A DNA stretch of 64,000 bases, taken from assembly GCA_016795155.1 (NCBI GenBank), contig JAEUIE010000002.1, positions 124,001 to 188,000 of the forward strand, written 5' to 3'. The notes under the pieces were generated by a model. It saw only the letters and a list, made by a program, of their open reading frames with translations, had not been told where the DNA came from and searched no databases. Positions 2,199 to 33,148 of this stretch are shown here, one piece after another. Source of the stretch: Planctomycetia bacterium (GTDB lineage: Bacteria; Planctomycetota; Planctomycetia; Gemmatales; HRBIN36). Numbering within the stretch: the first letter of the stretch is position 1; the number at the start of each line of letters is the position of its first letter. The translations under genes were made by a program, and so were the position numbers.

Positions 2199-3848
2199 TC
2201 AACTGACAATTCGGTTTCTTTTCTGGTTCTGAACTATCTTCATACTCATCAACGCAGCAATTGGTTTCCACCAGTTTCGCCAATGGGCTTGCTCTTCTGG
2301 CTTCAGGTAAAGTTTGAGGAATCTCAACAGATCGGTTCTGCTGGCTGAGAGTGATGTCAAGGCACTCAATGCCAGCCGGGCCAGGTCTTTCTTTTTTCTG
2401 CTGTTGCTCAGCCAGCGTGAATGAGAGACGCCGCGCAGGTCGATCAGGTATAAATCGGGCGAAGCCTCTTCAGCTTGTCGGACCAGGATATTGATGACTT
2501 TCAAATCGCGATGCGACATGCGAAACATGTGGAGCCTTTGAACTAAATCGGCAAGTTTGACCAGGCATGACTGACGTTGTTGATCACTGGCCTGGCTCCA
2601 GTAGTCGCCCAGGGAAACAGTCTGCTGCAGATGCTCCATGATGACATAGCTCATTTCCAGCCTGCCGTGCCTTCGTTTTTCAACAACAGCGAGCGGGCGG
2701 GCCGTGGGAATCTGAGCGGTTTCCAGGCGATACGCCATACGGTAACAATGGTAGGCGGGAGATCGTCGATAACGGCTCAGCCAGCGGTCGGCGGCATGTC
2801 GAGGCTTGAACTGCTTGACCACCACAGACTGTTTCCCGGCAGGCAGGACTGCAACCATCCCATGGCGGGACACTTTGAGGATAGTGGACCTGGGATGGTG
2901 GATTTGCAGGGCTGGATCGAAGAGGAATTCATTAAGCCAATCGGCAGGAAGTTTGCGGCTGGCCCAGGCATGGAAACGCCGGACACTCTGTTCATAAAAA
3001 TCACGGTTGGCCTTGGTGTTGCGATTGGCCCGATCATTCCAGATGTAATAAATCTGTTGGTGCACTTTCTGATGCAGTTCGGCAAGGAATACGCGTTCTT
3101 CTTTCCGCTCGAAATGAAAGCCGCTGGCACGCCGCAATTCGACCCAGGCACGCAGGCGATCGTGTGCGGTTACTTCATACCAGAACGTATGGCTTAAAAG
3201 CACCAGGGCATTCAGGAAGGACTTGCGATCACAGGGCGGTAAGGTCCCAACACTGTAGGGATCGATCAGGTACCAGATCCTCTGGCCCAAATCATTGCGG
3301 TGCAGGAGGATATTACCGGGATGTAGATCGTGATGGTTGATCCCTCCCTGGATGATCTGGGCGATGAACCGTGCCATTTCCGTCATAAGCAGACGGCATT
3401 CGCGATGTTGTCCCGCTTGTTTCCATGCTGTCCAGTGTAGCTGAAAATATTGTTGCAATGGTTGAGCGTGTGGAATTTCTTCGGTGATAATGTAGCTGCC
3501 ATGCACGGGGTGTTTGCCAACGGCGACCGGTTTCACGGTGGGGACAGAACGTTCACGGAGCACGAGGGTGCGCTGCCATTCAATCCATGCCTTGGCGGAA
3601 CGGATCCATTGCCTGATACGCGAGAGGAAATCCTGTTCAGGGTAGTATTTCACAAAGATCGATTTATCGGGCAACCCCACACGATAAATGGTACGGTGTT
3701 CGGAATCTTTGATGATTTCGACATTCCCGGCCCGGGTCCATTCCTCCAGACGCAGCCCTTCTTCGCCGAGCAAATGCTGCTGCCAATCGGGATCGACCAC
3801 CCAACGCTCTGTGCCGCAGTCAATCTGTTTCCAGGACGTGGAACTCAT
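2199..3848 (-). CDS. Tandem WaaP/InaA-type lipopolysaccharide kinase-like protein
   Basis: This 549-residue protein contains two protein-kinase-like domains in a row. The first has HHDLHPGN at about 172-179 and the Mg-binding YLIDPYS at about 193-199. The second has SHRDLKVIN at about 445-453 and LYLIDLRGV at about 466-474. Both resemble the Kdo kinase/WaaP/InaA branch, which phosphorylates sugars of lipopolysaccharide cores. Each half keeps the catalytic Asp and the metal-binding Asp, so both could be active. Its ATG overlaps the TGA of the glycosyltransferase gene before it (ATGA), which points to translational coupling and a shared role in making a cell-surface glycan. The second domain has K-V in place of the usual H-P before the Asn. 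Confidence 0.8.
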   Translation of the reverse strand: MSSTSWKQIDCGTERWVVDPDWQQHLLGEEGLRLEEWTRAGNVEIIKDSEHRTIYRVGLPDKSIFVKYYPEQDFLSRIRQWIRSAKAWIEWQRTLVLRERSVPTVKPVAVGKHPVHGSYIITEEIPHAQPLQQYFQLHWTAWKQAGQHRECRLLMTEMARFIAQIIQGGINHHDLHPGNILLHRNDLGQRIWYLIDPYSVGTLPPCDRKSFLNALVLLSHTFWYEVTAHDRLRAWVELRRASGFHFERKEERVFLAELHQKVHQQIYYIWNDRANRNTKANRDFYEQSVRRFHAWASRKLPADWLNEFLFDPALQIHHPRSTILKVSRHGMVAVLPAGKQSVVVKQFKPRHAADRWLSRYRRSPAYHCYRMAYRLETAQIPTARPLAVVEKRRHGRLEMSYVIMEHLQQTVSLGDYWSQASDQQRQSCLVKLADLVQRLHMFRMSHRDLKVINILVRQAEEASPDLYLIDLRGVSHSRWLSNSRKKKDLARLALSALTSLSASRTDLLRFLKLYLKPEEQAHWRNWWKPIAALMSMKIVQNQKRNRIVS

Positions 3849-5989: not shown

Positions 5990-6688
5990 TTATGCCCTGA
6001 TGGCAATGAACAACTCTGACATTTTGATGCCTAATCCGAGGCAGATTTTGTAGAGTGTTTCGATAGATGCTGAGTTTTTACCCAGCTCAATCTGTGACAG
6101 GTAGCCCAGTGAAACCTTGGTACGATCAGAAAGTTGAGCCAGCGTCAAATCCATGCCTTTACGACGTTCACGAAGTACTTTGCCCAGGTTCTCACGCAAG
6201 GCATCTTCGGACATTCTCAGAATGCCTTTTGATTCCAGGCAATGATGAACCGTTTCACGGAGTTTGTTGATATCGAACGGCTTGGTGATGTAATCGTAGG
6301 CTCGGGCACGCAAGCTGCTAAGTGCACTATCAACGGACGGATAACCAGTCATGACAATGACGCTGGCATCGGGTTGATTCAGCTTAACCTGATCGAACAG
6401 AGAGTTCGGATCAATGCCCGGCAGGACATAATCCATAATGATCAGGTTATAGTTGCCATTCCGCAGGGCAGCATCAATCTGATCGCGTTGATTGACAGTA
6501 TCAATGGCAAAATGAGGTTGTGCCAAAGCTCGTTCGATGACTTGGCAAATAGCTGCTTCATCATCAATGACTAAAATGCGCACATCAGCTGGACAGTAGA
6601 ACAGTTGATGGGTAGATTCGCCTACAGCTTCGGTGACAGTTCCATTATCAGAATTGAATTTTGCGCGTTTGGACCAAAGATCGAACAT
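5990..6688 (-). CDS. Response regulator with C-terminal XRE-type helix-turn-helix
   Basis: This 232-residue protein joins a receiver domain to a Cro/C1-type DNA-binding domain. The receiver has the acidic pair in ILVIDDEAA, the phosphorylatable Asp in LIIMDYVLPG, the Thr in VIVMTGYPS and the Lys in YITKPFD. The C-terminal part (about 165-232) reads LGKVLRERRKGMDLTLAQLS, then TKVSLGYLSQIELGKNSAS, a clear XRE helix-turn-helix. Receiver domains are usually joined to winged-helix, NarL or Fis-type outputs, so this pairing is less common. The start ATG at 6688 follows the GTGAGG ribosome site; the upstream GTG at 6700 is part of that site. No histidine kinase lies next to it. Its promoter is given separately. 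Confidence 0.88.
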   Translation of the reverse strand: MFDLWSKRAKFNSDNGTVTEAVGESTHQLFYCPADVRILVIDDEAAICQVIERALAQPHFAIDTVNQRDQIDAALRNGNYNLIIMDYVLPGIDPNSLFDQVKLNQPDASVIVMTGYPSVDSALSSLRARAYDYITKPFDINKLRETVHHCLESKGILRMSEDALRENLGKVLRERRKGMDLTLAQLSDRTKVSLGYLSQIELGKNSASIETLYKICLGLGIKMSELFIAIRA

Positions 6689-6744
6689 GGGCAACCTCAC
6701 GAAATTTTTTGAGAATATTCATAGCAAGTGAACATCCATAATTA

Positions 6745-6796: not shown

Positions 6797-9019
6797 TTAT
6801 AATCTCCAATTTAAGGTACTATTAAGATAACGATAAAATCGCCAAGCGAGAGTACGCGGCGGTACCATTACTTTCACTTTGCCCATAACGCCTGGGTGAA
6901 TGGCTGGAGAAAGTTCATCCAGATTGATCGTCACCATGAAATGCTGGCTTTGCGGACGTTCCACCTGACGTTGTTCTGATTCAAGTGCCTTGGTTTCGGT
7001 AGCAACATCGCCGCCGTACTTGGAAGAAAGCTGATAAGGGATTTCCGCCGTTTCCTTATTGGCGATGCTGGTGATATGGCCTTTCCAGTAGTTGTACCCC
7101 AAGCCATGGATACGTAGCAGGGCTTCATCATTTTCCTGGATCAGGTCTTTATCAGAAGGTTCAACCAGAAAAATGGCTCGCAGTTTAGTGACATCGCCCA
7201 CGATACATAGCTCAGTGCCTCGTGGAACATGGTTGCCCAGTTGTTCCTTGGGGATGAGCTTCATGACGGTGCCATCCTGTGGTGCACGCAGCACAAGACG
7301 TTCCTGCTGCTTGCGGAGCAGTTGCTGATTATGCTCCATCTTGTCGAGTTCACCCTGAGCTTTGACCAGCTGATTGCTGATAGGGCCAGCCCGGCTGCCA
7401 CTGGATTGCTGCTGTTGAATGAGAGATTGAATCTGTTTCTTCACCAGGGGAATCTGATTCAGTGTCAGTTCATAATTAATGCTGAGATCAAGATTCTGGA
7501 AGCGGGCGAGAGGCTGACCTGCTTTGACCGTTTCACCGTCCTTGACATACAGTTCAGCCAGGAAATTGCCTTCATCTTCGACTACGACTGATCGCTGATA
7601 CATGGGGTCAGGCTGAACCAGCGTGGTGGCTTTCACCCGCATGGGGAAAGGGATCAGCATGAGTGTGGTAAGCACGGTGACCAGCACCACCGAACTGATG
7701 ATAACACGTGCCGGTTTCATATCTGGTATTCTCCCACGTCGGTGTATGGACTTTCCGAGTTTGTACAATGGCATGCCAAGCATGGCAGCAAGGGAAATGG
7801 TGCCTAGCAGGTAACTGATCGAGCCAAGCTTATACGGCTCCAGGAAGGTGTACATGAAGCCGAGAATGCTGAATGTGATGAGCCAGCGATAAAGCCAGCT
7901 CACAATGGCAAAGGTGACAAACAGTATTTTCCGGTTCAGAGTCATGTAGGGTTGCGGAGGCACTTCGATGCCCAGGCAGTATTCCTGAACTACTTCGCCC
8001 AGATATTTGTTGGCTTTTTCACGGAGGTTGGGAATTTCAAGCCAGTCGGCCAGCACATAATAGCCGTCAAAACGCATTAACGGATTGGCATTGAAAACAA
8101 AGGTGCTGATGCTGCAGACGACCATCAGGCTCATGCACATGTTGTTCACAAATGTGCCATTGTCGGTAGACCACCAGACAAAGGTAGCCAGAGCTGCAAT
8201 CAGCAGTTCCACGTAGATGCCCGCGGCGCTGATGACGATGCGCTGCCATTTGCTGGGCAGGGTCCAGGCATCGGAAACATTACAGTACATGCACGGCGAG
8301 AAGACGAGAAAGAGCAGGCCCATCTCATGCACTTCACCGCCAAAGGTTTTACATGAAAGCCCATGCCCGAATTCATGTATCACTTTGACAGCACCGAGGG
8401 CTACCCACAGGTAGGCCATGGTTTTCAGCGTAAAGAACTCGTGATAGGCGGGCATCTTGGAAACAAAAGTGTTCCAATGGGTGGCCACCAGCATGACGGC
8501 GCCCAGCATGACCATGATCGAGAGAAACAGGAAGAATCTGGTAAAAATGAACCCGAACAGGGGGACCATCTTCTCCAGAACGCGATCAGGATCAAACAGG
8601 GGAATCTTGATGTAGAAGATGTTCATGAACGACTGCATGATCTTGCGATTGCGTCGTTTCTTGTAACGTGTGAATAACTGTTTGCCTGCACCGGCATTTT
8701 CGTTTTGTGCCAGCCCCGCTTGTAACAACTGGCTGGTAAAGGCTTCCAGATCTTCCAGCGTCAGGCGTTCGGGGCGAAATTGCAGTTCGAAGGCTTTCTG
8801 CGCGTCGTCGAGAGTACGTGCCCCGTCCATATAGTCGAGCAGAAACCGTTCATGTTCCTTGAAGCGATAGTAGCGCAGTGAAACAGGATCTTTGACGACG
8901 TAAAAGGTTTTGCCTTCGTATTTATGCTTGCCGATGTGCAGATCCGGACGCAGTCGTACCCGCACCTTCTTGCGGCGTTCGAGCTCGGAGATTTCTCCCA
9001 GGTTCAGCGTCGGATTCAT
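6797..9019 (-). CDS. PqqD-like / M50 site-2 protease / HlyD adaptor fusion protein
   Basis: This 740-residue protein has three parts. Residues about 15-105 resemble a PqqD-like winged-helix peptide-binding module. Residues about 150-460 form a multi-pass membrane protease: HEFGH at 215-219 is the zinc site, and NANPLMRFDGYY at about 310-321 supplies the conserved second Asp motif of the M50 (site-2 protease) family. After the last membrane segment, residues about 465-700 form a HlyD-type adaptor: a lipoyl half (YVKDGETVKAGQPLARF), a coiled hairpin (about 515-575), the second half (LVLRAPQDGTV) and a beta-barrel. The start has AGGAAACGG upstream, 18 bases after the stop of the WD40 adaptor gene. 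Cleaved substrate and exported cargo are unknown. Confidence 0.85.
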   Translation of the reverse strand: MNPTLNLGEISELERRKKVRVRLRPDLHIGKHKYEGKTFYVVKDPVSLRYYRFKEHERFLLDYMDGARTLDDAQKAFELQFRPERLTLEDLEAFTSQLLQAGLAQNENAGAGKQLFTRYKKRRNRKIMQSFMNIFYIKIPLFDPDRVLEKMVPLFGFIFTRFFLFLSIMVMLGAVMLVATHWNTFVSKMPAYHEFFTLKTMAYLWVALGAVKVIHEFGHGLSCKTFGGEVHEMGLLFLVFSPCMYCNVSDAWTLPSKWQRIVISAAGIYVELLIAALATFVWWSTDNGTFVNNMCMSLMVVCSISTFVFNANPLMRFDGYYVLADWLEIPNLREKANKYLGEVVQEYCLGIEVPPQPYMTLNRKILFVTFAIVSWLYRWLITFSILGFMYTFLEPYKLGSISYLLGTISLAAMLGMPLYKLGKSIHRRGRIPDMKPARVIISSVVLVTVLTTLMLIPFPMRVKATTLVQPDPMYQRSVVVEDEGNFLAELYVKDGETVKAGQPLARFQNLDLSINYELTLNQIPLVKKQIQSLIQQQQSSGSRAGPISNQLVKAQGELDKMEHNQQLLRKQQERLVLRAPQDGTVMKLIPKEQLGNHVPRGTELCIVGDVTKLRAIFLVEPSDKDLIQENDEALLRIHGLGYNYWKGHITSIANKETAEIPYQLSSKYGGDVATETKALESEQRQVERPQSQHFMVTINLDELSPAIHPGVMGKVKVMVPPRTLAWRFYRYLNSTLNWRL

Positions 9020-9037
9020 CTATTCCGTTTCCTGAAG

Positions 9038-11095
9038 TTACTTCGAATCCACAGCATCGGGATAAACAATCATGGATACACGCTTGCCTGTCTCCAGTCT
9101 GGTTTTGCCGGAATTGTCGTATTCCGCTTGAATGCGAATGAGGCCTGTGCCACTTTCGACCTGCGAACTTTTGAAAATCAGCTTGGCGAGAATGGGTGAT
9201 GTCAATTCAGTAGCAGGTGGCATCTGCCAGACACGGATTTTGTTGTCGGTACTGCCCATGAAAACATATGTCTGCTTGGCGGAAGGCAGGAAGAGTGCAC
9301 AATTGGATCGCACTGCTTCCGGCAACATGAAGTGTGCACCGATGGATGCATCCTTGAGCCAGTATTCGGTGGAAGTCTGTGTTTTGCCCGGTACACCAAC
9401 AGGTATCTCACCCGATGCATCAGTTTCTTTGCCTAGATGTGGCAGACGAATCAGCAGATTGCGGCCCTGATCGGTTGCAGCGACGGCCCACTCACCATTG
9501 GGTGAGAGTTCCGCGAACTGCACAAAGCGGCCCTGACGGCGACTGCTGAGCACGCTGACAGGTTCCAGTGTCTGTGAATCGAGCAGACGAAGTTCATCGC
9601 CATGTTCCGAGAAAAGATAACGGCCATTGTCAGCCAGGTTGATGTGGCGCACATCGCCGGTACGGCCCATCACCATCTTGACCAGTTCACTGTTGTTGGG
9701 GCCAAGTTTCCAGCGACGGATGGCATTATCAGTTCCCGAGGTCAGCAGATACTGGCCATCCTTGCTGAAGATAACTGAGGTAATGCCGCCGAAATGCGTG
9801 CTGGCGTGTCCTGCGACATCGGCCTGCACCCAATAGAGTTTCTTGCCATCATTCACATTCCAGATGGCAACACGGCGATCGTCACTGCCTGAGGCTGCAT
9901 ATTTGCCGTCACTGCGGAAAGCGATGGTATTTACTGATTGATCGTGCACTTTATCAAGCGTCTTGGCTTCCACCTTGGGTGGGGTAGTGCCGGTGATTTT
10001 GACAGTCCATTGAATGACGGAGCCATCGGCAAAACCTGCCAGGATCTGGTAACTGTCGTTATTGACAGCAGGTGATACTGCCACGCATTTACAGGCGACT
10101 CGACGCTGATCGCCTCGTTCCAGTCGAACCCAGGGCAGCGAGGAGACGGCATGCATATCCCACAAAATGACAGAACCATCGTCGCTGGAGGATGCCAGGA
10201 AGCGTGAAAGAGGCGCCAGAGCCAAGCCGGTGACAGGTCCGGTGTGGCCGTTGTAAACAAACTTGGCTTCGCGATCGTTATCGGGTTCCAGGATGACGGT
10301 CATGCCTTCACGAAGACTTTCCGAGAAGCCTGATTCAAAAGCACCTTCCACAATCAGGGATTTGTCGTTGATTACCTGCAGGATGGATTCGCCATTGCGA
10401 ACGCTGTTGCCCACCTTCTTATAGACTTTGATGACTTTTCCAGGGATACGCGATTTGATCTGGAACAGCGCATGCTGCCGTTCGACTTCGATAAGCCGGG
10501 CTTGTTCAAATTTCTGTTCACTTTTGGCTTTGACAATGTCATGCTGAGCCTGATTGCGGCGGGCAAGTGCCAGATCAAGTTCAGACTGACTGGTGGCGCC
10601 GGTTTTGATCATCTGTTCCTGGCGAGCGACTTCCTTGACATAGACCTCCAGAGCATTTTCAGCTGCCTTGATCTTGGATTCACTGATTTCACCAGCCTGG
10701 ATGCGCTGCGCATCAAGTCGAGCTTTGGCGAGAATGTCTTCGAGGATTACCAGAGTATCGCCGGGCTTTACTTCACTGCCAATGCCTTTAGGAATTTCAA
10801 GAATCGAGGCATTGGCATTTTCGACTTCAAAGGTGAGATCCATTTCCTCTTTGGGTTTGAGTTCGGCAGGAATGACAATGGCGCCACCAGTTTTGATGCT
10901 GCTGATCATTTCGCTGGTGGTGGTGACATTGACGACAGGCGATTTGGCCGCATCAAGCGGGGTAGCAACGACCTGTTTCGCAGCTTCCTTCTGCATGGTC
11001 TGAATCAGTTTGTTATCCTCAGCCTGGCCTTTGTAATAAAAGACCGCTGCCAATCCTGCGAGCACCAGAAGTACGAAGCCAACAAAACGCCACAT
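9038..11095 (-). CDS. HlyD-type adaptor with an inserted WD40 propeller
   Basis: This 685-residue protein has one N-terminal membrane anchor (about 4-21). A lipoyl/barrel region (about 75-125) follows, then a helical hairpin (about 125-212) and the returning strand FQIKSRIPGKVIKVYKKVGN. From about 280 to 630 there is a WD40 propeller. Clear blades end in GSVILWDM, GSVIQWTV, RRVAIWNV, NAIRRWKL and NKIRVWQM, with GH or H-x-x-x-V at the blade starts. The final 55 residues (LAKLIFKSSQVESGTGLIRI to the end) look like the adaptor beta-barrel, so the propeller is inserted in the adaptor rather than added at its end. AGGTGACTT precedes the ATG. It lies 50 bases after the GAF-HlyD gene. Confidence 0.85.
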   Translation of the reverse strand: MWRFVGFVLLVLAGLAAVFYYKGQAEDNKLIQTMQKEAAKQVVATPLDAAKSPVVNVTTTSEMISSIKTGGAIVIPAELKPKEEMDLTFEVENANASILEIPKGIGSEVKPGDTLVILEDILAKARLDAQRIQAGEISESKIKAAENALEVYVKEVARQEQMIKTGATSQSELDLALARRNQAQHDIVKAKSEQKFEQARLIEVERQHALFQIKSRIPGKVIKVYKKVGNSVRNGESILQVINDKSLIVEGAFESGFSESLREGMTVILEPDNDREAKFVYNGHTGPVTGLALAPLSRFLASSSDDGSVILWDMHAVSSLPWVRLERGDQRRVACKCVAVSPAVNNDSYQILAGFADGSVIQWTVKITGTTPPKVEAKTLDKVHDQSVNTIAFRSDGKYAASGSDDRRVAIWNVNDGKKLYWVQADVAGHASTHFGGITSVIFSKDGQYLLTSGTDNAIRRWKLGPNNSELVKMVMGRTGDVRHINLADNGRYLFSEHGDELRLLDSQTLEPVSVLSSRRQGRFVQFAELSPNGEWAVAATDQGRNLLIRLPHLGKETDASGEIPVGVPGKTQTSTEYWLKDASIGAHFMLPEAVRSNCALFLPSAKQTYVFMGSTDNKIRVWQMPPATELTSPILAKLIFKSSQVESGTGLIRIQAEYDNSGKTRLETGKRVSMIVYPDAVDSK

Positions 11096-11145
11096 AAGTC
11101 ACCTGTCGATATCTGTGTGTTGGGGAAGAGTGTTTCGAATCCACA

Positions 11146-13176
11146 TTAAAAGACAATGTGTTCGAAGAAAAACTCCCAGAGTTGATAAAACCAGACATAG
11201 CCGATGGAACGCTGGCCACAATTGACCTTGGCCTGCACCATGACTTCGACCGGCATGCCATCACCTTTGAGCTGTTCGATCTTGGCACGCAGATCGTCGC
11301 CGATTTCCACGCGGCATTTGAGCACCACTTCGCTTTCGGTGATATGACTCACCATGCCACCCATGCCATTTTCATTAAGCGTGCCCTGGTAGTAGGTATT
11401 GGGTTCGGTGCTGATCCAGAGTCTGACATCGAGTTGCCGTTTTTCTGACTGATTCAGTGCTTCACGGATTTTGCCAATGTGGGCTTCAGGAATATTGAGC
11501 TGTACTTCCCAGGCACCATCGATCTTGGCGACTTCGAGCAGCTTTTCACCCGGCTTGACGGTCTTGCCTTTCAGATCGGTAACGTCGAACGTGGTGACGA
11601 CGCCATCAATCGGTGAACGTACGGAGAAGAGATCGCCGCCAGTATACTTGGTGAAGGTTTCAAGGGATTCCTTGGCCTTGCGCATGTTGGATTCGCTTTC
11701 AATCAACATGCCCCGGTATTGATCCTGCTGTTCAAGAGATAAGCCAGGTTGATTGAGTGCTGCCGCCGCCCGTGCCCGCATTTTGCTGTTGGTATCGTAA
11801 TCGCTGCGAAGCTCGATCATTTTGGCACGGAGGTCTTTGGAATCGATTCGCAGCAGTTCCTGTCCGACACTGACGCGGTCGCCATGGCGGACCATGGGTT
11901 CGGCTTTGCCTTCAAACATGGCCGTGATCGTATGCCTGTCTTTGGGCACCAGGTTACCCTTGGCAAAAAGGCGCAGTGGCCAGGGGATGAGTACCAGGGC
12001 AGCAACAAGCAGTGCTGCAGCAGCTGCAATCACCATGGCCCAGGTGCCACGTTTGCCACGTAAGGAATCGCGGATGTTGGCAATAGGTAGCAAGGCCCAT
12101 CGGAAGGGGACCCGGTGATGCTCCAATACGTTGTACATCGCTGGGGCCGAGTGCTTGATCAGCACATCGATGCGTGCCAGCAATGCTTCTGCAGTCAGAT
12201 TTGGTTCGAAACACTCGATGACCATGGCGGATCGGCAGGGTCGTTCCTTGTCTTCGCGGTCATCACGGAGCGGAGCGACAATCAGCATCTTGCTGTTGCT
12301 TTCCGCCAGGTATTTATCGAGTGCTGTCAGAACCTTGGGGGGCAGTGTTTCATCCCGTTCACCGTTGTAGACCAGTCTGTCGTTCCAGACCAGGACGGCA
12401 TCGCATAACTGTTTCATGCACTGAATCAGACTGCTGCGCTTTTCGACGACATCAGCCCCACTGACCGCTTCGATCTGCGTGTTGCCACCCAGACGGCTGG
12501 CTACACTGATTCGATCAACCGCGAGAAGCCGTCGGCTTTCGTTGACCATCACGAAAGTGGCTTCGCGAAGGTTCAGCGTACTGTGAATCTGCTTGGTGAA
12601 AGCTTCGAGTTGTGTCCAGACCTGCTGCTGACCAAGGACAGTGCGGAACTGCTGATTGCGGAAATAGTTGCCTGCGTAGGAGCACATGTCTGTCATGAAC
12701 TGCAGGAAGCCGCGGATAGCCGCCGGGTTGCGGTTCGGCTCCAGGGCAACTTCCAGGATGCCCTGCACCTGTCGTTCAATGACAATGGGAGCGAGGAGCA
12801 GGATCATATTGGTGAGGTTAGCCGGGGCAGGGGCGCCTTCCATCAAGCCAGGCCCGCTCTTGGGAGGCATGGAAATGGGTTTACCCTGCTCGATGACAGC
12901 ACGGAGCACCTGATCGTGGCTGGCGCGAGCGCCCTCAATGTTATCGAGATTGAGATCTGCAATGCCAATCTGGTACTGCTGTTGCAGATTGCCCTGGGGC
13001 GTGCGCAGCCAGATGGCGCCAACATTGGTGGCCAATGCGAGCAGGATACGCTGGAGAAACTCCTGACCAAACTCAGGAGGACTCATGGTCGATTCGGCAA
13101 GGCGGGCGATTTCCTCAATCAGTTGATTGATCTGCTGCCTTTTCTCTTCAACCGGATCGATGGGGTTCGCACTCAC
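11146..13176 (-). CDS. GAF-domain HlyD-type membrane fusion protein
   Basis: This 676-residue protein begins with a cytoplasmic part made of two GAF-like domains (about 15-175 and 185-345). A single membrane helix follows at about 378-400, ending in LIPWPLRLF. The periplasmic HlyD-type adaptor (about 405-660) has AEPMVRHGDRVSVGQELLRI and FSVRSPIDGVVTTFDV as its two lipoyl halves, with a short hairpin between. GAF domains bind small ligands, so this adaptor may report a cytoplasmic signal to an envelope complex. The start is GTG, supported by GGAGG seven bases upstream. It is the first gene of the three-adaptor operon, with a good promoter upstream. The cytoplasmic sensory half on an adaptor is unusual. 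Confidence 0.85.
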   Translation of the reverse strand: MSANPIDPVEEKRQQINQLIEEIARLAESTMSPPEFGQEFLQRILLALATNVGAIWLRTPQGNLQQQYQIGIADLNLDNIEGARASHDQVLRAVIEQGKPISMPPKSGPGLMEGAPAPANLTNMILLLAPIVIERQVQGILEVALEPNRNPAAIRGFLQFMTDMCSYAGNYFRNQQFRTVLGQQQVWTQLEAFTKQIHSTLNLREATFVMVNESRRLLAVDRISVASRLGGNTQIEAVSGADVVEKRSSLIQCMKQLCDAVLVWNDRLVYNGERDETLPPKVLTALDKYLAESNSKMLIVAPLRDDREDKERPCRSAMVIECFEPNLTAEALLARIDVLIKHSAPAMYNVLEHHRVPFRWALLPIANIRDSLRGKRGTWAMVIAAAAALLVAALVLIPWPLRLFAKGNLVPKDRHTITAMFEGKAEPMVRHGDRVSVGQELLRIDSKDLRAKMIELRSDYDTNSKMRARAAAALNQPGLSLEQQDQYRGMLIESESNMRKAKESLETFTKYTGGDLFSVRSPIDGVVTTFDVTDLKGKTVKPGEKLLEVAKIDGAWEVQLNIPEAHIGKIREALNQSEKRQLDVRLWISTEPNTYYQGTLNENGMGGMVSHITESEVVLKCRVEIGDDLRAKIEQLKGDGMPVEVMVQAKVNCGQRSIGYVWFYQLWEFFFEHIVF

Positions 13177-13232: not shown

Positions 13233-13261
13233 ACTATACGGGTTGTGAGAAGCTGCGCCAA
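13233..13261 (-). promoter_or_regulatory. Promoter of the three-adaptor operon
   Basis: On the minus strand, TTGGCG (13261-13256) and TATAGT (13238-13233) are 17 bases apart. The leader of about 50 bases contains a perfect 6-bp hairpin with an AAAA loop at 13199-13214, just before the GGAGG ribosome site of the GAF-HlyD gene. That hairpin could influence translation. Confidence 0.55.
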
Positions 13262-13839: not shown

Positions 13840-13860
13840 CAGTTACGAGTAGATAAATAA

Positions 13861-13890
13861 AGAGCCCACCAGAAACTGGTGGGCTCTTTG
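13861..13890. terminator. Bidirectional terminator
   Basis: Arms AGAGCCCACCAG and CTGGTGGGCTCT pair perfectly over 12 bp around a three-base loop, with A-rich and T-rich flanks on the two sides. It serves the Cys-rich gene (plus) and the M36 peptidase gene (minus), which converge here. Confidence 0.85.
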
Positions 13891-13907: not shown

Positions 13908-16900
13908 TTATGGAGCAGTGATGTTGATGTTGTAGTTGCCCCAGCCATTGTTATAGCCCGCAACGGCGAAGTAGTAGGTGATACCTGCTCCTACTGCGAT
14001 ATTGACTGTTTCACTGGCACCTCTGGTACGGGTGACACCCTGACCAATCTTGGTGAGAGCGGTCGGTGACCCGTTTTTGGAGCGGTAAACATAGAGGTCA
14101 ATATCACCGGCACTAGTCGCAACGTCTACATTGATGGTCAAAATTCCAGCGCTGGTAGCAGTGAACTTGAACCAATCGCGGTCCTGGGCACGGCCAGCCT
14201 GAGGCTGTTTGATCTGCAGGTCGTCCACACTCGTTGCACCAGTGGGAAGAGTTCCGAGATCGAAAGCCCGATTGGAAGTTTCATTCGGCTCATAGAAGTT
14301 ATCGTTGCTGCCATTGCCACCAGGAGGTGGTGGAGGTGGAGGCACATTGGTGAAGTCAGGTTGTGTAAAATCTTCCTGCAGAGTCCAGGGTACAGGAGGA
14401 TTTTCAGCAGGATCATCAGGATCGGGTGTAGCAGCAATAGCACGCACACCCAGGCCACGCCGTGCCATGGCATCCCATATTTCCCGCTGATAGGCGCCAC
14501 CGTACTGGAACTGGTCAGCTGCTACCAAGGCATTACGTGCTTCGATAGAGCTCGGAGCAAAAGGCGTCAATGCCATAGCGGCTACAACCAGCTTGAATGC
14601 ACGATTATTACCAGCATCGCCATTCAGCATGTCTGCATTGTAGCCGTAGTTTTCCGTCATGTTCAGAGTGAAGTCATTCAGAGCATTCGCCCAGATTTCG
14701 CCCATGGTGTAATAGGAGTAGAATCCGTTGCCATCGCCATGGGACGATTGTTGTTGATCAAAATCGGAGTAGGTATAGGGGCTGATAACCTGGTTATAGC
14801 TATAGGGGTAATTGCGGATGCCATTGCCAGCAGCATTCTGACCCTGGACCCAGTTTCCAACTGTTTGTCGAGTTGTTTTGTTGTCAGTTTGCTTCTGACC
14901 GAGAACAAGAGCCATATAGTCGGCCCAGCCTTCGCCCAAACCTCGACCTTCAAAAGTTTGTGATAACGAACCTGCGTATTGAGGACCTCCTACCAGACGT
15001 GTGGAGAGACCATGTCCCAGTTCGTGGAAAATGATATCGTTGTCAAGGTCGGTGTCACGTACACCTGCAGAACCGGCCCAGATGAAGAAGTGTGTTCTTG
15101 GTGCAATACCGTCTGGGGTTGGTGCAAAGAATGCATTGTTGGAGTAGCCGATTTGTGACCCCGACTGGGCAAATGCCCGAATTGGATCATTCTGTGAGGT
15201 AGTGGGGCCTCTGCCGTAATTATTCTGCTGGAAATTCCCCGCAACTTCGTTGAAACCAGCCCGATAAGTTACGTCATGGAAGTAATTGACTGCGTAGAAC
15301 AACTGTGTGGTAGCTGAATTGGAATAAGAATTCGGATGCAGTGCTACATTCAGTGGGAAGTCGTAGTTATTGCCACCGACACCAAATGCCGGAGTACCAT
15401 TTAAAATTGGTGGATCAGCTTCATGATCGGCAAGAGGTGCCCAGATGGTAGAAGTATTGTTACCACGGGTGTAGAAGTACTCAGCACCGGTTCTCCCGTT
15501 GATGTCATGCCAGCCGTATGGGGAAGCCAGGGGGTCAGCAGGATTCACCACAAGTGTTCGGGAACCATCTCCCGGATTGGACACAGGTGCCTGGAAAACG
15601 CGATAGCTGTCGCCAGCAACCCAGTTAGTCCGGTTCCAGGCTTGCCCGGTTACAGCATCAATGTTGTACTCAAACATGTAAGCTGAGCCGGGAATAAAGA
15701 TACGGGTATTGTAAACCAGCCTGGTTTCACCGGGGCCGATGGGCAAATATTGCAGACTCACCGGAATTGGATCGATGGAGATGCTGGCATTGATAAAGGT
15801 AGGAACCTGTTCAACACCTCGTGGAGTGGTGCTGGCGAGAGTACCTCTGACTGTGAGGCCAGCATCCTGGGCTGCACGCAGAATAGCTTGTTGAGCTGTC
15901 AGTACTGGAGTTGTGGCATTGATTGTACTTGAAACATTCGGAATCATGCCATTGTTGAGAATCACCAGTGAGCCATCTGCCCGGACAGCAGAGCCGGAGT
16001 TGGTTCCGATGACAGGACGATTGTTGACATATTGCTGTAAGTGAACGATGCCACCACCAGTGCTCCAGTTGTACGAGCCAACATCTCGGAGGGTGTTGAC
16101 GTCAGTTGCGGAGATGCCAAGGAATTGAGCGTTTTGTGAGATAAAATCCTTGGTGATGTTGATCGCAGAGCCGACGCGTGGTCCAGTCAGCGGAGACGAA
16201 AGATTTATCATGCTGCTCGGTATGCCGAATACCGAGTCAACGGTATAGTTGAGATCCGTTGCAGTCTGCCGGAGAAGAGCTTCGCCCTGCAACTGTGAGG
16301 CATTCAAAGTGGAGATTGGTGCGTTCTGTCTTAGATCACTGCGAGTGTCGTATCCACCACTGTCGCCATCGGCTAACTTATAAATACTATTGGGGGAATT
16401 GTTAGTGTTATTAGCTGGAGGCGTGGGAGTCTTTGACGTAGATGGCAGGATACCTACTCCGCCAATGCTCGTCTTGATGCTGTTAGACAAAGATCCCAAC
16501 GAGCTTGAGCCACTACTTTGTGTACTGGATGCGGCATTGATCAGATTAGTCAGGTTTTGAACTGCCTGTTCAAAGGAGTCTTTCCGGAAGGTCATGTTGG
16601 TTCCGGAAGACTGGTTACTTAATGAAGTGTCGATTACTGACCCTGATTTGCTCTGGCTTGGTTGGCTGGTACGGTTAAAAATACCGTTGACCAACTGTTT
16701 GGCTGCAGCTCGTACCAGATCGAAGTTGTCTTGTACTGAAGTGGAAGTAGTGGTTCTCAGGGAAGCAACTGCGTTGTTAACTGCAGTGCTGGTAAGCAGA
16801 GGAGACTTCTGGCCGGAGACGGCAAAGGGAAGTTCGATTCCCGAGGGGCCGAGAATCATATTCCCCGGTATCGAACGATCTTCCAGGGTCTCAATATTGG

Positions 16901-16952
16901 GTTTATAACGGTTTAACTGAGACACAAGATTGGCTGATCGCTGTACTCGCAT
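13908..16952 (-). CDS. M36 (fungalysin-like) metallopeptidase with PPC domain
   Basis: This exported protease has about 1014 residues. The N-terminus has no classic signal peptide; it carries a basic stretch and LEDRSIPGN near residue 25, the N-terminal motif seen on exported proteins of Gemmataceae. Residues about 260-345 resemble the fungalysin propeptide (SAINITKDFISQNAQFLGIS). The zinc site HELGH lies at about 643-647 and the third ligand is in GRGLGEGWADYMAL. A PPPPPPPGG linker leads to a C-terminal PPC domain (about 885-1014: DRDWFKFTATSAGILTINV), which normally helps secretion or binding. The ATG at 16952 is chosen because GGAGAGA lies in front; the GTG at 16967 lies in that ribosome site. 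Confidence 0.9.
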   Translation of the reverse strand: MRVQRSANLVSQLNRYKPNIETLEDRSIPGNMILGPSGIELPFAVSGQKSPLLTSTAVNNAVASLRTTTSTSVQDNFDLVRAAAKQLVNGIFNRTSQPSQSKSGSVIDTSLSNQSSGTNMTFRKDSFEQAVQNLTNLINAASSTQSSGSSSLGSLSNSIKTSIGGVGILPSTSKTPTPPANNTNNSPNSIYKLADGDSGGYDTRSDLRQNAPISTLNASQLQGEALLRQTATDLNYTVDSVFGIPSSMINLSSPLTGPRVGSAINITKDFISQNAQFLGISATDVNTLRDVGSYNWSTGGGIVHLQQYVNNRPVIGTNSGSAVRADGSLVILNNGMIPNVSSTINATTPVLTAQQAILRAAQDAGLTVRGTLASTTPRGVEQVPTFINASISIDPIPVSLQYLPIGPGETRLVYNTRIFIPGSAYMFEYNIDAVTGQAWNRTNWVAGDSYRVFQAPVSNPGDGSRTLVVNPADPLASPYGWHDINGRTGAEYFYTRGNNTSTIWAPLADHEADPPILNGTPAFGVGGNNYDFPLNVALHPNSYSNSATTQLFYAVNYFHDVTYRAGFNEVAGNFQQNNYGRGPTTSQNDPIRAFAQSGSQIGYSNNAFFAPTPDGIAPRTHFFIWAGSAGVRDTDLDNDIIFHELGHGLSTRLVGGPQYAGSLSQTFEGRGLGEGWADYMALVLGQKQTDNKTTRQTVGNWVQGQNAAGNGIRNYPYSYNQVISPYTYSDFDQQQSSHGDGNGFYSYYTMGEIWANALNDFTLNMTENYGYNADMLNGDAGNNRAFKLVVAAMALTPFAPSSIEARNALVAADQFQYGGAYQREIWDAMARRGLGVRAIAATPDPDDPAENPPVPWTLQEDFTQPDFTNVPPPPPPPGGNGSNDNFYEPNETSNRAFDLGTLPTGATSVDDLQIKQPQAGRAQDRDWFKFTATSAGILTINVDVATSAGDIDLYVYRSKNGSPTALTKIGQGVTRTRGASETVNIAVGAGITYYFAVAGYNNGWGNYNINITAP

Positions 16953-17374
16953 GACGTCTCTCTCCACAATAGCTGGTGCGGTTGGTCATCCTGACAAAGC
17001 GGAAAGGCACCAACAAAAAAGATGGGCCACGAAGATAAAGCTAACCGCCTGCCACGACCTCGCAAGTTAAAATGTGGGAAATACCCTGAGTTACCGGCCC
17101 GAAAAGCTCCACTATTCCGCAAACCATGCGTAACTCTGAGAAACTCTCTGAATCATGCAACATCCTCAGGATTTTTCCTTAAGTCTCTAGACGCATAAGA
17201 GGGGCGATTAGTTCCAACATTCAATGCGCCAAGTTCAGCAGTCCCATTATGACAAGGCATGAATCAAAGTGCAAGCGCCACTTTGGATGTTCCATATCTT
17301 TATGTTTACCAAGCCGATTTCTGAAATGATAGCACTACTATAATGTTCATATCTCCTTGCAGCAGGATCACGAC
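16953..17374. other. Intergenic region between divergent genes
   Basis: These 422 bases separate the minus-strand M36 gene from the plus-strand DUF4159 gene. A perfect TATAAT lies at 17339-17344, about 30 bases before the DUF4159 start, but no good -35 box was found 16-18 bases upstream. The side facing the peptidase has no convincing promoter and no riboswitch I can recognise. No small gene is supported. Confidence 0.4.
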
Positions 17375-30045: not shown

Positions 30046-30530
30046 GATGATTCTGAGTTAGTATGTGGATTGGTTGTGGCCGGTCGAATCAGCGAAACAA
30101 AATAGACAAATAATAAGGCTGTCAACGCTCCGGATGAATCGATCAGTACATCCCAGACGCTGCCTGTTCGCTGATGGCTGATGAAGCCCTGCTGCAGTTC
30201 ATCCAGGCTGGCCCAGATGATGGTGGCAACAAGGGCGATCAGGAACCATGACCACTTCCATCGGGTAGCTGAATCGCCTCGTAGGGCACGAAGCCAGAGA
30301 TAAGCGAGCAGGGCGTATTCGAGGAAATGTGCGGTTTTACGCAGTAGGCCTTCGCCACTACTGATGGTGGGTACGTCAGGTCCTTCGCCAAAGAAAAGTC
30401 GCTTGATCCACCGGATGATGGGTTGCGTATTTTCGCTGGAGAAGAGATCCGTTCCCAGCGTCATGGTCACCGCCATCATGAGGGCAACCATGATCCACTG
30501 GAATCGGGACTGTGCTTTCAAATGAGCCAT
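30042..30530 (-). CDS. VanZ family membrane protein
   Basis: This 162-residue protein has four or five membrane helices and family features: GLLRKTAHFLEYALLAYLWL is the VanZ K-x-x-H-x-x-E-Y motif, and ATIIWASLDELQQGFISHQRTGSVWDVL carries the D-E-x-x-Q-x-F/S-x-x-R-x-x-x-x-x-D signature. VanZ proteins are linked to teicoplanin resistance in enterococci, but bacterial relatives have unknown roles in the membrane. The start overlaps the stop of the upstream repeat protein by one base (TAATG), so the two are translationally coupled. Confidence 0.85.
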   Translation of the reverse strand: MAHLKAQSRFQWIMVALMMAVTMTLGTDLFSSENTQPIIRWIKRLFFGEGPDVPTISSGEGLLRKTAHFLEYALLAYLWLRALRGDSATRWKWSWFLIALVATIIWASLDELQQGFISHQRTGSVWDVLIDSSGALTALLFVYFVSLIRPATTNPHTNSESS

Positions 30531-33148
30531 TAAGTAATGTTAATGGTCACCGTGGCGATATTCGAGACAAGGCCCAGATTATCTGTAATGGTGTAAGTGA
30601 AGCTGTCGGTAGGTGATGCTGATCCGTTATGCATGTAAGTCACGGTGCCGTTGTCATTGACGATAATCGAACCGTGTGATGGTTGATTCACGATGATGAT
30701 CGACGCCGGGTTGATGAATCCATCATCGGTGTCATTGGAAATAAGGTTGAATACCTTGACGTCGAAAACCAGAATGCTGAAGAAATCGTTTCCTGCTACA
30801 GGAGGCTGGTTACCGGCAGTGATAGTGATATTCACCTGAGCTTCGTTGGAAGTGGCGCCTTGCTGATCGTTAATGGTGTATTTGAATGAATCAGAAGTGG
30901 TTGCTGAGCCATTATGGGTGTAGGTGATAGTGCCATCGCCGTTAATGCTAAGGGTGCCGTTGGCGGGTGGTTGGGTGATGACGATGCTGTTCAGATCGAG
31001 AGAACTGTCTGCATCAGTATCATTGCCTGCCACGTTGACGACGACCGAGCCACCCTGAGTGATGGATTCCTGGTCATCGACTGCAACCGGTGCATCATTC
31101 TGTGGAGTTACGGTAATGGTAACGGTGGCAGTATTGGAGGTTGCTCCATCTGCATCTTTGATAGTGTAGGTGAAGGAATCAGAAGTGGTTTCTGAACCAT
31201 TGTGGGTGTAGGAAACCGTTCCATCGTTGTTAACAACAATGCTGCCGTTGGCGGGTTGATCCACAATGACGATGCTGGTCAGATCAAGCTGGTTCTCGGC
31301 ATCCGTGTCATTACCTGCAAGATTGATAACGATATTGCCACCTTCGGCAACAGTAGCCTCATCGTTGACAGCTACTGGATCATCATTGACAGGAGCGATG
31401 GTGACAGTAACCGTAGCTGCATTGGAGGTGTTGCCTTCGGTATCTTTAATGGTGTACTGAAAGGAATCAGTGGTGGATTCGGAGCCATCATGGAGATAGG
31501 TGACGGTGCCATCGTTATTCACCTGGATGCTGCCATGAGCAGGTTGCTGCGTGATGATTATGGTGGTGAGATCGAGACTGCCGTCAGGGTCGGAATCGTT
31601 CGACGCAAGATTAATGACTACGTTACCACCTTCATCGACGTTGGCTGCATCATTTACCGCTATCGGATCATCTGCTTGAGGAGTGACGGTGATGGTAACC
31701 GTGGCGGTATTGGAGGTGGTGCCCTGCGTATCCTTGATGGTGTAAGTGAAACTGTCAGTCGTGGTGTTCGAATTATTGTGGAGGTAAGTGACGGTGCCGT
31801 TGTTGTTGACCGTCACGGAACCGTTGGCAGGCTGTGCGACGATGACAATGGAGGTTAAATCCAGACTGTTTTCCGGATCAGTATCGTTGGATGCAACATT
31901 GATGATTACACTGCCACCTTCATCGACTGTGGCTGTATCATTGACTGCAACAGGTGGATCATTTACTGGCGTAATCGTGATATTAACGGTAGCAGTATTG
32001 GAAGTAGCCCCGAGGTTATCCTTGATGGTGTAGGTGAAAGTGTTCGTAGTCGTTTCTGAGCCATTATGTGTATAGGACACCGTGCCGTTATTATTCACGG
32101 TCACGGAGCCGTTAGCTGGCTGCTGGACAATCGTAATGCTGTTGAGAGCCAGAGTGCCATCGCTGTCGGAATCATTAGAAGCCACATTGATGCTGACAGT
32201 TCCACCTTCAGCTACGGTTGCGGTGTCGTTCAGGGCAGCAGGTGGATCGTTGACAGGCGTGATCGTGATGCTGACGGTGGCTTCCTGAGAAGTTTTTCCA
32301 TTGGTGTTGCTGATGGTGTAGGTAAATGAGTCCGATGTGGTGTTGGATCCATCGTGCACATAAGTTACGGTACCATCGTCGTTCACGGTCACTACACCGT
32401 TGGTTGGCTCATCGACAATGACAATGGAAGTGAGGTCGAGTTGGCCAAGCAGGCTGAAATCGTTGGCAGCGACATCGATATCTACTTGACCGCCTTCGAG
32501 TAGAGTGGCTGAATCATCTCCTGCTGTGGGTAGAATCTCGCTGCTCTTGAACTGGAAGTTTTCGAGTTTGACGTTGTGTCCCCATTTGTTCCCTTGGGCA
32601 GTGAAGGTATCGTTATCCCTACCGCCATCAATGCGGCTGTGCCTGCCTATTCTGGTGTTGACGATACCGACCTGATCATCGCCGTCATTAGCGTAAATGG
32701 CTAATTCCTTGCGGAAGGAACTGTCGGTAATGGCAATGACGTCATCACCATCACCACCTTTAATAGTAGAAGGCTTCTTGGCATGCACATTATCCAGTAG
32801 CAGATAATCGTTGCCATCGCCGAGGTTGAGTCCAATCTCACGTTTCAAATCAACATTGGAAATGGTAAGCTGATCATCGCCGCCGAGCAGGTAGCCTGCG
32901 ATGCCTTTGGTAACATTCCAGAAGACGAGTGGGCCATCTTCGCCGTTGATGGTTGTGGCATCGGAACCAGATTCGATTCGCACACCACCGTTGCCGATGC
33001 CTGTGATACTGATGTGGTTGGCTTCATCATCACCAGTGAAATAGAGAGTACCACCCGTGACCGAGGCAGTGATATTGCCCGCCGGTACGGTTCGACTTTC
33101 GAGATTGTCGAACGAGGGAACAAAACGACGGCGGCGGCAGTTACTCAT
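30530..33148 (-). CDS. RTX-like / cadherin-like repeat exported protein
   Basis: This 872-residue protein has no classic signal peptide. It starts with RRRRF and LESRTVPAG, the N-terminal LE(D/S)R-type motif of exported Gemmataceae proteins. Residues about 90-175 contain four glycine/Asp-rich RTX-like turns (LGDGNDYLLL, GGDGDDVIAI, ANDGDDQVGI, GGRDNDTFTA) that would bind calcium. From about residue 211 to the end are seven repeats of 96-97 residues (the last 85), each starting near D-x-A-T-V-x-E-G-G and ending in I-T-P-V-N-D-P-P. This is the tandem cadherin/Ig-like repeat pattern found in bacterial adhesins. It probably forms a surface fibre. Confidence 0.85.
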   Translation of the reverse strand: MSNCRRRRFVPSFDNLESRTVPAGNITASVTGGTLYFTGDDEANHISITGIGNGGVRIESGSDATTINGEDGPLVFWNVTKGIAGYLLGGDDQLTISNVDLKREIGLNLGDGNDYLLLDNVHAKKPSTIKGGDGDDVIAITDSSFRKELAIYANDGDDQVGIVNTRIGRHSRIDGGRDNDTFTAQGNKWGHNVKLENFQFKSSEILPTAGDDSATLLEGGQVDIDVAANDFSLLGQLDLTSIVIVDEPTNGVVTVNDDGTVTYVHDGSNTTSDSFTYTISNTNGKTSQEATVSITITPVNDPPAALNDTATVAEGGTVSINVASNDSDSDGTLALNSITIVQQPANGSVTVNNNGTVSYTHNGSETTTNTFTYTIKDNLGATSNTATVNITITPVNDPPVAVNDTATVDEGGSVIINVASNDTDPENSLDLTSIVIVAQPANGSVTVNNNGTVTYLHNNSNTTTDSFTYTIKDTQGTTSNTATVTITVTPQADDPIAVNDAANVDEGGNVVINLASNDSDPDGSLDLTTIIITQQPAHGSIQVNNDGTVTYLHDGSESTTDSFQYTIKDTEGNTSNAATVTVTIAPVNDDPVAVNDEATVAEGGNIVINLAGNDTDAENQLDLTSIVIVDQPANGSIVVNNDGTVSYTHNGSETTSDSFTYTIKDADGATSNTATVTITVTPQNDAPVAVDDQESITQGGSVVVNVAGNDTDADSSLDLNSIVITQPPANGTLSINGDGTITYTHNGSATTSDSFKYTINDQQGATSNEAQVNITITAGNQPPVAGNDFFSILVFDVKVFNLISNDTDDGFINPASIIIVNQPSHGSIIVNDNGTVTYMHNGSASPTDSFTYTITDNLGLVSNIATVTINIT
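30533..32518 (-). repeat. Seven tandem 96-codon repeats inside the RTX/cadherin-like gene
   Basis: The units are about 288 bases long. The middle five are the most alike in protein and often in DNA; the first and last differ most. Repeat seven lacks the conserved E-G-G opening (it reads D-F-F-S-I-L), as often seen for a terminal unit. Such DNA repeats can change in number by recombination or slippage. Confidence 0.85.

Follow-up and report, generated by a model that had tools for sequence, protein, structure and literature searches.

What is the function of three adjacent planctomycete genes that each fuse a HlyD-type adaptor to a different second module, when no TolC, ATP-binding cassette (ABC) or resistance-nodulation-division (RND) gene adjoins them? 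The question is raised by a 64,000-nucleotide stretch of contig JAEUIE010000002.1 of Planctomycetia bacterium (the window), where open reading frame (ORF) calling and Pfam identified three consecutive genes, with intergenic gaps of 50 bases (A-B) and 18 bases (B-C):

11146-13176, minus strand: gene A, GAF-HlyD, 676 residues, GTG start
9038-11095, minus strand: gene B, HlyD with an inserted WD40 domain, 685 residues
6797-9019, minus strand: gene C, PqqD-like-M50-HlyD, 740 residues

An earlier reading of the letters alone (the sequence-only reading) had described the same genes and gaps, and had proposed that the products form one envelope complex that recognises a peptide, cleaves it in the membrane and exports or signals through the adaptors. 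According to our analysis, the genes probably belong to a type-I-like exporter of proteins with an N-terminal LExR leader, with SecA as its motor. In the best reading of the data, A, B and C would be the inner-membrane and periplasmic core of this exporter, a short SecA-like ATPase replacing the ABC pump.

The C protein consists of a PqqD-like N-terminal domain (approximately residues 20-110), a multi-helix M50 membrane region and a C-terminal HlyD adaptor, with Pfam matches to Peptidase_M50 (4e-10) and HlyD_D23/HlyD_3. The protease motifs named by the sequence-only reading are found at 215-219 (HEFGH) and N312-P313...D318-G319. In particular, residues H215, E216, H219, N312, P313 and D318 of these HExxH and NxNPxxxxDG motifs are invariant in an alignment of 20 diverse C proteins having 23-61% identity to C from the window. 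The adaptor fold, considered for C, is seen in the match of residues 458-724 to MacA by profile (E 8e-17), and in the best Foldseek matches, MacA and Spr0693 (template modelling score by target 0.54-0.72). The PqqD assignment stands in part: PF05402 scores 14.4 bits in C (E 0.05), below the gathering score of 23.4, but 12 of 42 C orthologues match it with E ≤ 0.01 (best 4.7e-4), and in the AlphaFold model of C (mean predicted local distance difference test score, pLDDT, 87.8) the N-terminal domain is formed by three strands followed by helices. No fold match of this domain to a solved PqqD structure was obtained; from the model, we read it as similar to PqqD or a recognition element of ribosomally synthesised and post-translationally modified peptides (RiPPs).

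The A protein comprises two N-terminal cytoplasmic GAF or GAF-like domains, one transmembrane helix (approximately residues 376-407) and a periplasmic HlyD region. It matches HlyD_D23/HlyD_3, the match to GAF_3 being sub-threshold (3.5e-4), while the GAF domain, as proposed earlier, is matched at 3e-10 in the orthologue from locus L049. The B protein has a membrane anchor at the N terminus and an HlyD adaptor split by a WD40 propeller at approximately residues 273-640 (Pfam matches HlyD_3 and WD40, the latter at 4.5e-31). Since B with residues 273-640 deleted aligns across the junction to WD40-free HlyD orthologues, the propeller is an insertion, as the sequence-only reading had it, and it is expected to be periplasmic.

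Co-occurrence of the three genes in other planctomycete genomes, on which the idea of a common complex depended, is indeed observed. C is present in all seven genomes of the same family (including the window genome) in one copy each, flanked by A and a WD40-containing B; in one of them (L041) the frame of C was masked by a false opposite-strand ORF in gene calling. Among the sampled genomes of the phylum, 88 of 294 match C at E ≤ 0.001, some of these matches being weak and covering only HlyD or M50. A single-protein scan of genome contigs found no relatives; from the alignment-based scan 80 loci were kept, all from planctomycetes. The A-B-C order recurs across Planctomycetota, and A and C are found together on proteobacterial plasmids. 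Most B proteins of other planctomycetes are plain HlyD proteins of about 300-400 residues, so that WD40 in B is, judging by the compared sequences, a lineage-specific addition, seen only in and near the family of the window genome; it was also found in seven named relatives, including Gemmataceae, Singulisphaera and Pan216.

Clustering of genes near C in 40 loci yielded, as recurrent neighbours, a SecA paralogue of 633-694 residues, DUF3467, OEP/TolC and very large repeat proteins; the SecA-like, OEP and DUF3467 genes were confirmed by Pfam. No ABC exporter adjoins the genes in the window, and the recurrent neighbours that were identified in relatives include none. The short SecA has only three SecA domain matches, SecA_DEAD, P-loop and preprotein-binding. 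It is found in 35 of 48 C-positive and in none of 48 C-negative genomes (Fisher test, p = 2e-15, or 6e-14 if an ambiguous 831-residue frame of genome G022 is counted among the C-negative). These counts were read from match tables, a short SecA being a one-piece match extending past the point where canonical SecA matches split; the query was an in-frame slice that includes 12 codons ahead of the ORF start and omits the last 13 codons before the stop. In the plasmid records, the closest SecA-like matches lie near C in seven. Moreover, in the relative L104, where B likewise contains WD40, TolC, A-B-C and a 2308-residue LEDRCLLS protein follow each other on one strand.

The sequence-only reading had seen no TolC, ABC exporter or RND pump next to the three genes, and neither did ORFs with Pfam. 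The partners were missed at this locus because the window genome scatters them: a short SecA of 655 residues with intact GEGKT, DEAD and GRSGRQGDPG motifs is on contig C25 (SecA_DEAD, 8e-100), and the TolC orthologue (contig C3, E 6e-134) and a DUF3467 protein (contig C12) are likewise unlinked to A-B-C. The recurrence of the three genes as a set in different phyla, beside TolC and the SecA-like ATPase, supports the proposed single envelope complex exporting through the adaptors.

Several side observations concern these partners. One of the SecA-like copies beside C in the 48 C-positive genomes (L075, 11156-13108) has no GEGKT motif and looks degenerate. In Pseudosulfitobacter, the short SecA (L181, 14993-17017) is named 'prepilin peptidase' in the public annotation, which is an error, and a SapC-family gene lies between it and C (14179-15000); another SapC-family gene is divergent from the giant-protein gene of Alisedimentitalea (L241, 43558-44355), so that SapC is a possible extra component. 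The assumption that DUF3467 is a SecB-like chaperone was dropped, as the model was too poor (pLDDT 60) and no convincing profile match in PDB was found.

As for the cargo, in relatives C lies beside genes of large surface proteins, 1,000 to 13,000 residues long and of immunoglobulin/cadherin type, in which a basic stretch precedes an N-terminal LExR motif. The variants of this leader are LEPRxLLS (LEPR-XLL), LEPRxxFDAA and, in the family of the window genome, LE[DS]RxxP. To judge from hydropathy, the leader-bearing giants lack a hydrophobic core resembling that of signal peptides: the maximum over 12 residues is approximately 1.3 or less in nine leader proteins tested, compared to 2.5 for OmpA. 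A giant with the LExR leader accompanies C in 11 of 13 proteobacterial plasmid loci, while the motif is found in about 4.5% of other ORFs (p = 1e-13). The two remaining loci are those of Phyllobacterium, with an HrpK-type protein, and of Indioceanicola, cut by the end of the record. The gene order on the Thalassospira plasmid is giant-DUF3467-A-C-B-TolC; the Pseudosulfitobacter plasmid locus encodes a giant of 12,900 residues, and in Tistrella a distance of a few kilobases separates the giant gene from C. For the 8,199-residue frame of Alisedimentitalea (L241, 18779-43378), the public annotation erroneously places the start downstream of the LEPR leader. The LEPR family NF012209 is above the cut-off in 21 of 34 C-positive genomes and in 1 of 33 C-negative ones (p = 1.6e-7). 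For draft planctomycete genomes no p-value is given for the adjacency, because greedy calling of ORFs yields false long frames when the DNA is GC-rich. The shared N-terminal leader is thus likely a mark of the exporter cargo. The small peptide implied by the sequence-only reading is probably not the cargo, and the giant-protein leader is a more plausible target for PqqD-like recognition and M50 cleavage. In the window, there are two candidates:

13908-16967, minus strand: M36 fungalysin-like protease, 1019 residues, leader RYKPNIETLEDRSIPG
30530-33148, minus strand: cadherin-repeat protein, 872 residues, leader FVPSFDNLESRTVPAG

The M36 protease gene is the next one upstream of A; its leader contains IETLEDRSIPG and has no hydrophobic signal-peptide core. 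The 872-residue protein has seven cadherin/Big_9-type repeats and the N-terminal motif FDNLESRTVPAG.

The loci fall into two subtypes. In loci whose giant is of the LEPRxLLS type, the short SecA and DUF3467 are often encoded, alone or together (both in Mesorhizobium, SecA in Pseudosulfitobacter and Ensifer, only DUF3467 in Thalassospira). Loci with DUF4347 or LExRxxFD giants, found in Azospirillum, Burkholderia, Niveispirillum, Cupriavidus and E. coli plasmids, have the order TolC-B-A-C with no short SecA nearby. For instance, an E. coli plasmid (NZ_CP081687; loci L183/L207) carries a giant (4459 residues, leader FALESRQLFDGAA) followed by TolC-B-A-C, without the short SecA; the E. coli form of the C gene, usually plasmid-borne, is present in 24 of 5426 E. 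coli genomes.

PqqD-like domains bind leaders, and in the exporter the one of C would bind the leader of a large surface or extracellular protein that has LExR at its N terminus and no signal peptide. The M50 domain may then remove or process the leader at the membrane; that it cleaves the leader seems to us evenly balanced between true and false. The SecA-like motor would drive the chain outward, in this order of steps, and the HlyD regions of all three proteins, in direct contact with each other, would form a periplasmic conduit to the TolC channel. The GAF domains of A could gate the exporter or sense from the cytoplasm, and the WD40 domain of B would provide a lineage-specific periplasmic docking surface. 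A broader proposal, that a SecA paralogue, an adaptor-fused intramembrane protease and TolC form a separate Gram-negative secretion class for giants lacking signal peptides, whose LExR leader is read and cleaved by PqqD-M50, is tentative, and we place it slightly on the doubtful side.

Some observations weigh against the exporter. The sampled genomes share ancestry and are not independent, so that the p-values above overstate independence. An intact short SecA is missing from 13 of the 48 C-positive genomes, and the DUF4347-type loci, including those of E. coli plasmids, have no SecA nearby, hence SecA is not universal. The PqqD match in C is weak. In the window genome, the leader enrichment is modest, with five of seven LExRxxP matches being within the first 60 residues (p = 0.0016 in 895 kb). 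Moreover, NF012209 finds no matches in that genome, and therefore only its resemblance and its position tie LE[DS]RxxP to LEPR.

Regulated intramembrane proteolysis is a known activity of M50 enzymes, and C might sense a peptide or the envelope state via its PqqD-like and adaptor regions and cut a membrane protein, with the GAF domains of A signalling and no bulk export taking place. The GAF domains are in line with this, as is the gene for a fusion of a response-regulator receiver and an HTH_3 domain, situated on the same strand directly downstream of C (5990-6700). However, what recurs beside the genes are components of export and giant surface proteins rather than signalling genes, and in E. 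coli and Azospirillum A has about 450 residues, too few to include the GAF region, which makes regulated proteolysis unlikely. Maturation and export of a small RiPP-like peptide, with the PqqD-like domain binding a short precursor, M50 trimming it and the adaptors exporting it, is very improbable. C does match the models of the daptide (NF041824, 192 bits, spanning residues 33-408, that is, the PqqD-like and M50 regions) and YydH/LiaK (NF058609, 52 bits) proteases, but these matches fall far short of the equivalog cut-offs (300 and 225, respectively). Unlike these proteases, C includes an adaptor domain and is encoded beside giant proteins, and no radical S-adenosylmethionine or other modifying enzyme is among the identified recurrent neighbours. 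That these NCBIfam models, comprising M50 relatives, belong to peptide maturation was counted in favour of the exporter. Finally, the exporter might be the same but with the M50 region acting as a membrane pore, protease activity not being needed, as suggested by the multi-helix membrane region of C and proposed in PMC4452313; given the invariance of the catalytic residues, expected of a working protease, this is rather unlikely.

The exporter of LExR proteins resembles type I secretion (HlyB-HlyD-TolC) and MacAB-TolC in its HlyD/MacA-type adaptor fold, its giant repeat cargo and its TolC-family channel, which is unlinked in the window genome and adjoins A-B-C in relatives. It differs from both in having a SecA-like ATPase, M50 and a PqqD-like domain instead of an ABC exporter, and in the putative cargo signal being at the N terminus. 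In Gram-positive bacteria, the accessory SecA2 is a second SecA paralogue tied to the export of particular surface proteins. The SecA considered here is also a second paralogue, but it is short (about 650 residues), scores below all SecA2 cut-offs, and occurs in diderm hosts with HlyD, TolC and M50 partners. Compared to the LEPR-XLL/LEPR-8K domain (NF012209), the cargo of relatives shares the N-terminal LExR, the window genome having the LE[DS]RxxP variant.

The sequence-only reading knew of no characterised system with this set. The module was predicted computationally by Kamneva, Poudel and Ward 2015 (PMC4452313), who found it via secondary SecA_DEAD proteins, and hence we abandoned the idea that it was wholly unreported; still, no characterisation was found in the open-access literature, though later work may exist. 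Their locus comprises GAF-HlyD, Peptidase_M50-HlyD, HlyD/biotin-lipoyl, secondary SecA_DEAD and sometimes OEP, occurs in Planctomycetes, Proteobacteria and others, and has its parts sometimes scattered in the genome. SecA was proposed to be the ATPase and M50 a possible pore, the broader role being 'completely unknown'; the main text names no cargo and has no LEPR, DUF3467, WD40 or PqqD. As in that module, GAF-HlyD, M50-HlyD and HlyD genes are together in the window, and a secondary SecA_DEAD protein is encoded in the genome, albeit, unlike in the linked form, on another contig, which the paper allows for. The LExR-leader giants as likely cargo, the WD40-in-adaptor variant and the SecA-less variant, including that of E. 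coli plasmids, are apparently new. Nothing useful was found in the open-access literature for LEPR-XLL, DUF4347 or daptide.

Some of the largest bacterial proteins are encoded by planctomycetes and many marine proteobacteria; they lack a signal peptide, and no exit route is known for them. If the LEPR-XLL leader is tied to the module, these giants gain a secretion machine, the orphan N-terminal motif is explained, and the SecA-linked locus of 2015 acquires a testable function. Since a version of the system occurs naturally on enterobacterial plasmids, a laboratory strain of E. coli could serve for its study.

Upstream of A, the sequence-only reading had placed a promoter:

13233-13261, minus strand: sigma-70-like match, TTGGCG-17-TATAGT

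The sequence is present, but matches of this type are at the chance level (six found, 5.7 expected), and it was dropped as the operon promoter. Between the M36 gene and A, after the former, there is a terminator-like hairpin of 14 pairs (13859-13889). Elsewhere in the window, one protein (2199-3848) matches a Kdo/WaaP-type kinase domain over two stretches.

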